The notes beneath the pieces were generated by a model. That model had not been told where the DNA came from. It did no database searches and worked only from the letters and a program-made list of their open reading frames with translations. This document shows positions 29,433 through 63,223 of a stretch of DNA of 64,000 bases, piece after piece. This DNA is from Arthrobacter sp. 135MFCol5.1 (lineage in GTDB: Bacteria; Actinomycetota; Actinomycetes; Actinomycetales; Micrococcaceae). Position 1 is the stretch's first letter. Each line of letters begins with the position of its first letter. The stretch spans positions 1-64,000 of the forward strand of contig NZ_KB895468.1 of the NCBI RefSeq assembly GCF_000374865.1, given 5' to 3'. The position numbers and the translations under genes were made by a program.

Positions 29433-29448
29433 TCGAACATGTCTTCGA
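29433..29448 (+). promoter_or_regulatory. LexA (SOS) box in the radical SAM gene promoter
   Basis: TCGAACATGTCTTCGA differs from the actinobacterial consensus TCGAAC-N4-GTTCGA at one position. A -35 TTGACT (29422-29427) and a -10 TCGAAT (29445-29450) are 17 bases apart, and the box covers the spacer and the -10. The -10 ends 7 bases before ATG 29458, so the mRNA is probably leaderless. Confidence 0.72.
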
Positions 29449-42755: not shown

Positions 42756-43172
42756 TCAGTGGCTGGGGACGAAGAGCTGCTGCCCGGGCAGGACCGCGCC
42801 GGCGGACAGGTTGTTGAGCTGGACGATGTCCGCCACGACGTCCCGTGCATCCCGGTTCGGGGCCACGGCACCGGCGATGGACCAAAGGGACTGGCCGGGC
42901 TGGACCGTGACTGTCACCGTGGGCGTCACGGCGAGGTCCGCGGCGGAATCGGAGGCCTTGGCCGGGGAGTGGAAAAGTCCCGCCAAGGAGAGCAGCAGGA
43001 CCGCGAGGAGAATCAGCGGCACTCCCACCAGGACGATCCGCCCCCGCCGGGTCAACCGAAGCGGCGCCGGTGATGGCGCAGTTCCGGCACTGATCCGCCG
43101 GCTGCCGGACGAGTGGCGCTCCCCGGCCAGGAACTCCGGACGCGATATGTGGGAAAGAGTTAAAGCTGACAT
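42756..43172 (-). CDS. LysM-domain single-pass membrane protein divergent from lexA (SOS division-inhibitor candidate)
   Basis: A 138-aa protein. A basic N-terminus, then one membrane helix (VLVGVPLILLAVLLLSLAGLF), a short linker and a C-terminal LysM domain VQPGQSLWSIAGAVAP ending QQLFVPSH. AGGAGGG is 8 bases before ATG 43172. Its place, divergent from lexA with LexA boxes between, equals that of YneA in Bacillus, DivS in Corynebacterium and Rv2719c/ChiZ in Mycobacterium, which stop division or act on the wall during DNA damage. That role is inferred from position and fold. No hydrolase domain is seen. Confidence 0.82.
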   Translation of the reverse strand: MSALTLSHISRPEFLAGERHSSGSRRISAGTAPSPAPLRLTRRGRIVLVGVPLILLAVLLLSLAGLFHSPAKASDSAADLAVTPTVTVTVQPGQSLWSIAGAVAPNRDARDVVADIVQLNNLSAGAVLPGQQLFVPSH

Positions 43173-43288
43173 GAACTGAGCCCTCCTGGACCTGCCGTGC
43201 TGCCCGGGTGTCCGCCGCTGCCGTCCTGCCTGCCGTGCCGGAATACCAATCTCTTCCGGCCAGGTCTTCGAACAGGCCATGCAATGGT

Positions 43289-43304
43289 TAGAACACATAT
43301 TCGA
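43289..43304. promoter_or_regulatory. LexA box on the LysM side of the lexA-LysM divergent region
   Basis: TAGAACACATATTCGA matches TCGAAC-N4-GTTCGA with two mismatches, and lies 117 bases before the LysM start. No convincing -35/-10 pair could be fixed on the minus strand. The whole 353-base intergenic region is noticeably AT-rich in its middle. Confidence 0.6.
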
Positions 43305-43355
43305 ACTTTGCTTACTAAGTTTTAGCACCTATCAACGAACAATGTCGAGACTCGC

Positions 43356-43396
43356 TAGAACAAATGTTTGAAAAAGCAATGTGGCTGGCCTAGCTT
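43356..43396 (+). promoter_or_regulatory. lexA promoter with overlapping LexA box
   Basis: The LexA box TAGAACAAATGTTTGA (43356-43371, two mismatches) overlaps a -35 TTGAAA (43368-43373). A 17-base spacer leads to a -10 TAGCTT (43391-43396). LexA binding here would block RNA polymerase and give autoregulation. A leader of about 120 bases follows. Confidence 0.68.
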
Positions 43397-43525
43397 GGAA
43401 ACCAAGAACAACCACCACTGAAGTTGAACAGCAGGGTCTGACAATGACAGCGGTGACCCTTCACGCAACGCCGGCCTACGGCGTGGGGCGGAAGATCCGG
43501 CGGCAAGCGAAAGGCATTGGCGAAC

Positions 43526-44254
43526 ATGGCAGCAGCAGCCGCCGGGGGCAGGACGGCCCCGCAACCAAAGAGGACTCCGAAGGGGCTTACCCCGCGGCAG
43601 AAGAAGATCCTCGAGACCATCCAGCGGTCCGTCAATGACAACGGCTACCCGCCCTCAATGCGCGAGATCGGCGACACGGTGGGCCTTGCGAGCTTGTCCA
43701 GCGTGACCCATCAGCTGTCCCAGCTGGAGAAGCTGGGCTACCTCCGGCGCGACCCGAAGCGGCCGCGAGCCATGGAGGTGCTCATGCCCCTCACGCTTGA
43801 CGGCGGCGGCGGGGAGCCGATTGCCGCCTCAGCGCCGCAGACACCCGGCGCCACCGTAACGGAGCTGCCTACCGCGCTGGACACCGCCATGGTTCCGCTC
43901 GTGGGCCGGATTGCCGCCGGCGGTCCCATCCTCGCCGAGCAGCTCGTTGAGGATGTCATGCCGCTCCCCCGCCAACTTGTGGGCCAGGGTGAACTGTTCA
44001 TGCTCAAGGTGGCCGGGGACTCCATGGTGGACGCCGCCATCTGCGACGGAGACTGGGTCGTGGTGCGCCGCCAGGCGGACGCCGTCAACGGTGATATCGT
44101 CGCTGCCCTGCTCGATGACGAAGCAACCGTCAAGACCTTCCGCCAGCGGGACGGCCACACCTGGCTGCTCCCGCAGAACACGCAGTACGAACCCATCCTG
44201 GGCGACCACGCGACCATCATGGGCAAAGTGGTTTCGGTGCTGCGGTCCCTCTGA
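43526..44254 (+). CDS. lexA: LexA repressor
   Basis: SOS repressor, about 242 aa. The N-terminal winged helix ([36 protein letters not shown]) binds SOS boxes. The C-terminal S24 peptidase-like half has the self-cleavage site Ala-Gly in GRIAAGGPI, the Ser in [10 protein letters not shown] and the Lys in EATVKTF. Activated RecA, also encoded in this window, triggers cleavage. ATG 43526 or TTG 43517 (closer to GAAAGG) could be the start. Convergent with dinG. Confidence 0.96.
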
Positions 44255-62807: not shown

Positions 62808-63188
62808 TCAAACAGCCTGGCTGCCGGGCCCCGGCGCGTCTGTTCCGGCGTGGCAATAGCGGCCGACGGCGGCCTGCCGGAGGTCCTCCGCCCAGGCAGC
62901 GAGCCGCTGCGCGGCCCGCACGTAATGGAACAGCTCGGTGGGCGTCAGGGCATCGATATCCGTCTCGGACAGCCGCCGGGCGAGTTCCGCCCCCTCCGGC
63001 TGGGCCGCGAGGGCGATGCCTTCCCGCTCCCACTGGAGGTCCTCTGACGGCCGCCCGGACACCAGCTGCCGGAACAGGTAGTCCACCACGCCCGGACTCA
63101 TTGCCCTCAGCGGCAGGTTGACTGAGTGGGTATGTGCCGGCTGCAGGCTTTCCCGCCGGGCGGGGATTCCGGATGATGGCGTGTCCAT
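62808..63188 (-). CDS. small SOS-controlled protein, DUF222-like fragment
   Basis: A 126-aa protein of unsure family. The central helix region IDALTPTELFHYVRAAQRLAAWAEDL resembles the N-terminal DUF222 part of actinobacterial HNH endonucleases (13E12 family), but no HNH domain follows; it ends after GPGSQAV. It may be a stand-alone domain or a remnant. ATG 63188 sits 6 bases after a -10, fitting a leaderless transcript under LexA control. Some 13E12 proteins of mycobacteria are, as I recall, also LexA targets. Convergence of promoter and motif makes it likely to be functional. Confidence 0.6.
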   Translation of the reverse strand: MDTPSSGIPARRESLQPAHTHSVNLPLRAMSPGVVDYLFRQLVSGRPSEDLQWEREGIALAAQPEGAELARRLSETDIDALTPTELFHYVRAAQRLAAWAEDLRQAAVGRYCHAGTDAPGPGSQAV

Positions 63189-63194
63189 TCCGCC

Positions 63195-63223
63195 ATGTTA
63201 TTCGAACATATATTCGAACACAA
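63195..63223 (-). promoter_or_regulatory. SOS promoter with LexA box in the spacer
   Basis: On the minus strand a -35 TTGTGT (63223-63218), a 17-base spacer and a -10 TAACAT (63200-63195) are clear. The spacer contains the LexA box TCGAATATATGTTCGA (63217-63202), one mismatch from consensus. The ATG at 63188 starts 6 bases after the -10, so the mRNA should be leaderless and tightly controlled by LexA. Confidence 0.75.

Follow-up and report, generated by a model that had tools for sequence, protein, structure and literature searches.

The window, the 64,000-nucleotide stretch of contig NZ_KB895468.1 from Arthrobacter sp. 135MFCol5.1 analysed here, carries a gene for a small LysM membrane protein divergent from lexA, whose product governs how bacteria respond to DNA damage; the host is an actinobacterium of soil type. 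The LysM gene occupies positions 42,756–43,172 of the minus strand (stop codon included), as defined by its open reading frame, Pfam and NCBIfam matches, and a structural model. Read from the sequence, it starts at the ATG at 43,172 and encodes 138 amino acids; a Shine-Dalgarno sequence, AGGAGG, lies on the same strand at 43,182–43,187, with the ATG 9 nt further on. On the plus strand, lexA spans 43,517–44,254 and is recognised by TIGR00498 (226 bits against a cut-off of 111), PF00717 and PF01726; its translation shows a readable AG cleavage site, the serine (GDSM) and the lysine (VKTF). An earlier note, made from the letters alone, had described a 138-aa single-pass LysM protein divergent from lexA, and the reading frame, Pfam, the model and TIGR00498 bear this out to the base.

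The 344-bp spacer between the two genes holds both of the LexA boxes that the same note had placed at 43289 and 43356. Box 2 (TAGAACACATATTCGA, 43,289–43,304) is the one nearer the LysM gene, immediately after the predicted LysM −10, and box 1 (TAGAACAAATGTTTGA, 43,356–43,371) is nearer lexA and overlaps the predicted lexA −35; each has 10 of 12 consensus bases. When the spacer was dinucleotide-shuffled, 1.1% of the shuffles contained one or more such boxes and 0 of 4,000 contained two. This placement, divergent from lexA with LexA boxes present, is that of YneA genes, and ChiZ-type genes too are divergent from lexA. Counting the bare consensus across the genome was rejected as proof of LexA boxes, because with up to two mismatches it gave 318 matches against 289 for the control, barely an enrichment; the evidence for the boxes is therefore their position and conservation. 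Across 30 loci, a conserved block, GTCTCGACA...TTCGT..ATA.GTGCTA.AA, separates the two boxes, and we infer that it is the LysM promoter. The predicted promoter (43,319–43,348, minus strand) comprises a −35 TCGACA (43,343–43,348), an 18-nt spacer and a −10 TGC-TAAAAC (43,319–43,324). Columns conserved at the 30 loci likewise suggest a lexA promoter (43,368–43,396, plus strand), with a −35 TTGAAA (43,368–43,373), a 17-nt spacer and a −10 TAGCTT (43,391–43,396).

Further LexA-like boxes lie elsewhere in the window and genome. One (TCGAACATGTCTTCGA, 29,433–29,448, 11/12) immediately precedes a radical SAM gene of the Rv2578c family that starts at about 29,458 (NF038135, 516 bits) and is probably a further SOS gene. 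Another (TCGAACATATATTCGA, 63,202–63,217, 11/12) stands 13 bp upstream of the gene for a 126-aa protein (62,808–63,188, minus strand) that has no Pfam or NCBIfam match; we regard this gene as a candidate SOS gene. In the same genome, AT-centred LexA boxes also precede canonical SOS genes, namely a dnaE2 cassette and two umuD-like genes (L142, L143 and L144), and these we counted in favour of an SOS reading.

The architecture of the 138-aa protein is simple. Pfam detected LysM at residues 89–136 (32.5 bits against a cut-off of 20.9) and no further domain. An AlphaFold model, whose alignment included mycobacterial relatives, depicts a disordered tail (residues 1–45, pLDDT below about 55), a membrane helix at residues 46–66 that coincides with the hydrophobic stretch (42,975–43,037, minus strand), and a confident beta-alpha-alpha-beta LysM domain at residues 85–136 (42,765–42,920, minus strand; pLDDT about 78–92). 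The low overall pTM (0.39) is what a protein made of a tail, a helix and one small domain should give. Foldseek against the PDB placed the LysM structures 4uz2/4uz3 on top, and a sequence search of solved structures returned mostly LysM domains of hydrolases. No catalytic domain is present in the model, so that Pfam and AlphaFold agree with the earlier note on a protein having only a helix and a LysM domain. YneA has this layout too, a single membrane helix and then an extracellular LysM with nothing more, and the best NCBIfam match is indeed YneA (NF010723, cell division suppressor; 41.3 bits, E 1.1e-10). This match spans helix, linker and LysM and stays below the curated cut-off of 60 bits; the best score within the phylum is 54.7 bits.

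Both the protein and its place are widely conserved. Orthologues were found in 147 of 149 genomes and all 32 genera of the window's family, and at 47 of 50 loci the gene is divergent from lexA, with the best box pair spaced 65–68 bp in 43 of these 47. Across the class, the family profile matches 261 of 297 genomes, and LysM gene and lexA are divergent neighbours in 63 of the 64 genomes for which both sets of coordinates were printed; in the sole exception, a fragmented assembly, they lie on different contigs. Outside the class, the two are divergent within 1.5 kb in 33 of the 56 genomes having both a YneA-model match and lexA, representing 14 families. Among 50 orthologues, mean identity is 21% in the N-terminal tail, 56% in the transmembrane helix and 61% in LysM, which is second to an eight-residue segment at the cytoplasmic edge of the helix (80%). 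Here lies the motif LTRRGR (residues 40–45; 43,038–43,055, minus strand), a putative divisome docking site whose columns are 88–94% identical.

Homology extends to the mycobacteria. The lexA neighbour in Mycobacterium is a 165-aa protein with the ChiZ layout that matches the family profile at 48–52 bits (E 5e-14 to 3e-15, values from a small search set) and is about 31–38% identical to the 138-aa protein. On the strength of its length, layout and place we take it to be ChiZ; with the mycobacterial member as query, a search of named records returned carriers all named Mycobacterium, M. tuberculosis not among them. ChiZ is thus a relative and not a look-alike. The earlier note had called such counterparts unrelated or weakly related, which needs amending given this detectable homology and the YneA match.

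Lineages lacking the gene, LysM or lexA are informative about which parts travel together. In Streptomyces-like genomes, the LysM gene is absent in 12 of 12 and exactly one box is left, on the lexA side; the 12 belong to one genus, so they perhaps reflect one evolutionary event. LysM-bearing genomes of other families (n = 18) average 2.8 boxes, against a background of 0.004–0.025 per region. Hence, the lexA box is separable from the boxes of the membrane protein. In family f41, two loci (L067 and L076) also lack the LysM gene and have two LexA boxes 86 bp apart between lexA and nrdR, so LexA may control nrdR at these loci.

Several single-helix proteins divergent from lexA in Mycobacteriaceae lack LysM, and most have LexA boxes. 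We assessed their kinship to LysM-bearing proteins with composition-matched shuffles (n = 100 each) and with E values at Z = 10,000. Three are kin through tail and helix, with 0 of 100 shuffles reaching the score (L062, E 8e-9; L064, E 1e-6; L125, E 0.004). L063 exceeds its own shuffles, yet its E value is 0.23, and L126 and L133 give a weak signal, 3 of 100 shuffles reaching the score. In the shuffle test, kinship was unsupported for L127, L129, L130, L138 and L140. A general descent from ChiZ to DivS was rejected as a claim, since for most LysM-less proteins other than these three the kinship is not significant.

Genus g21, within the window's family, offers the converse case. LexA exceeded the cut-off in none of the five genomes checked (best 80 bits, about 145 aa), and at the three loci read (L049, L053 and L054) the gene lies between a helicase gene and hisC, with no LexA boxes. 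The boxes are therefore missing where lexA is missing, and the gene can persist once SOS control has gone. Its product is the most divergent orthologue, with a degraded LTRRGR motif; persistence without a full-length lexA or boxes suggests that the protein may act outside SOS.

Taken together, gene place, LexA boxes, a topology without a catalytic domain, conservation and kinship to the mycobacterial protein argue that the 138-aa protein belongs with YneA and ChiZ as a cell-division inhibitor induced by the SOS response, a reading to which we assign a probability of roughly three in four. It would hold back division until damaged DNA has been repaired. The earlier note's proposal of a probable SOS division checkpoint is strengthened by the place, boxes, topology and kinship.

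Published work on the two relatives suggests how such an inhibitor could act. YneA binds FtsW TM7 through its transmembrane helix, requires K5, E6, F10, V11 and F14 for midcell localisation and toxicity, and needs wall binding by LysM, in which D46, T47 and I81 are required (PMC13396833). The first five residues fall on the same edge and first helix turns as the LTRRGR region; in an alignment by eye, D46, T47 and I81 correspond by position to Q94, S95 and V135 here. ChiZ makes cells filament and has FtsI and FtsQ as partners (PMC3989709, PMC7355643); its tail and helix are reported to be sufficient, and its hydrolase activity is now thought to be a false positive (PMC7355643, PMC3989709). Whether LysM is needed is disputed: for YneA it is, for ChiZ it is not.

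Building on the conserved edge and on these reports, we propose a docking edge combined with a LysM clamp. In undamaged cells, LexA would occupy both boxes, box 2 lying just beyond the LysM promoter and box 1 covering the lexA −35; judging by their place and conservation, it would keep both genes low. On DNA damage, RecA-activated LexA would cleave itself and the membrane protein would presumably be made. The LTRRGR edge and membrane helix would dock on the complex for septal wall synthesis, in all likelihood on FtsW/FtsI/FtsQ to judge from YneA and ChiZ, and LysM on the outer face would bind nascent glycan, stalling septal synthesis with bonds unbroken. The genome encodes three SEDS-family proteins, two of them over the FtsW cut-off, so a target is present. 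When LexA returns, membrane proteases would remove the protein and division would resume. The genome also has a protease with PDZ and S16 domains, a relative of the SepM family that scores 107 bits where the cut-off is 200, and this protease may take part in the recovery.

Box 2 bears on whether such a checkpoint could instead run mainly under PafBC or another damage regulator, with the boxes chiefly autoregulating lexA. Its position immediately after the predicted LysM −10 is distant from the lexA promoter, and the Streptomyces-like genomes, which have no LysM gene, do not have box 2 either; inspection of the spacer by eye found no convincing PafBC or RecA-NDp motif. Precedent for such control exists, as the rv2719c operon of M. 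tuberculosis is under PafBC control (PMC8151990), so that LexA may not be the main switch everywhere. The presence of PafBC in Arthrobacter (PMC6789036) and the box-free gene of genus g21 also count for it. On balance we consider control of this kind unlikely, with some weight left to it.

The pattern of conservation speaks to a second alternative, a damage-linked wall protein anchored by LysM that strengthens or remodels the envelope under stress and leaves division unblocked. Its best-conserved feature should hardly be the membrane edge motif in place of LysM, and the loss of LysM in some lexA-linked relatives is ill-suited to a pure wall anchor. LysM is a general wall-binding fold, the matches among solved structures are mostly from hydrolases and the gene persists in the lexA-less genus, all of which would fit a wall protein; ChiZ and YneA, the studied proteins of the same place and layout, nevertheless block division, and we judge this alternative improbable. 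That the gene merely happens to adjoin lexA beside accidental box-like sequences has a negligible chance of being right; it is contradicted by the conservation, within the class and outside it, of the box pair and of the gene's position and orientation, even though the two-mismatch consensus is hardly enriched genome-wide.

Extending the inhibitor reading to the phylum, one could picture a single ancestral lexA-linked divisome inhibitor running through most Actinomycetota and giving rise to ChiZ, to the 138-aa protein and, where LysM was lost, to DivS-like forms. What stayed constant would be the basic edge and helix at the membrane end, which hold on to the septal synthase; LysM would serve as an optional clamp on the wall, and the lexA-less lineage would have kept the inhibitor for another use. 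This history is tentative, and we put it at clearly less than even odds.

Small membrane division inhibitors adjoining lexA are known in Bacillus, Listeria, Staphylococcus, Mycobacterium and Corynebacterium (PMC6851548). The title of a 2006 paper, as cited in PMC13396833, calls Rv2719c 'the mycobacterium-specific gene', and work published in 2022 on the LexA regulon of Streptomyces reported no gene that clearly corresponds to a known division inhibitor (PMC9380542). In the literature searched, we found no paper on SOS division arrest in Arthrobacter or Micrococcus. As far as that literature shows, the distribution of the gene throughout the class and beyond it, the signature LTRRGR, and the three natural experiments offered by lineages lacking the gene, LysM or lexA appear to be new. 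The gene regularly accompanies lexA throughout the class, and in other classes too; the Streptomyces-like genomes are the exception. The natural LysM-less and lexA-less versions provide a ready non-pathogenic set for testing which part is responsible for stopping division, a question to which the papers on YneA and on ChiZ give conflicting answers.

Among known systems, SosA of Staphylococcus and SidA of Caulobacter are the same in kind, being small SOS-induced membrane inhibitors of late division, although SosA lacks LysM (PMC6851548). DivS of Corynebacterium glutamicum is likewise a single-pass division suppressor linked to lexA; it has no LysM (PMC6851548), so the earlier note erred in placing a LysM protein at the Corynebacterium locus. 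The 138-aa protein differs from it in bearing LysM, and the LysM-less relatives hint at a possible kinship between the two. YneA of Bacillus subtilis and Listeria shares the lexA-divergent place, the single membrane helix and the extracellular LysM, but its cytoplasmic tail is nearly absent, with the key residues K5 and E6 at its start (PMC13396833), whereas the tail here has about 45 residues and ends in LTRRGR. ChiZ (Rv2719c) of Mycobacterium differs in its longer tail without LTRRGR, in a LysM tryptophan that is replaced by glutamine in the GESLQ motif, and in boxes positioned otherwise. The two nevertheless share the place divergent from lexA, detectable homology over tail edge, helix and LysM, and, when the AlphaFold model is set against the layout of PMC7355643, the same order of parts: a disordered basic cytoplasmic tail, one membrane helix, a linker and a C-terminal LysM.
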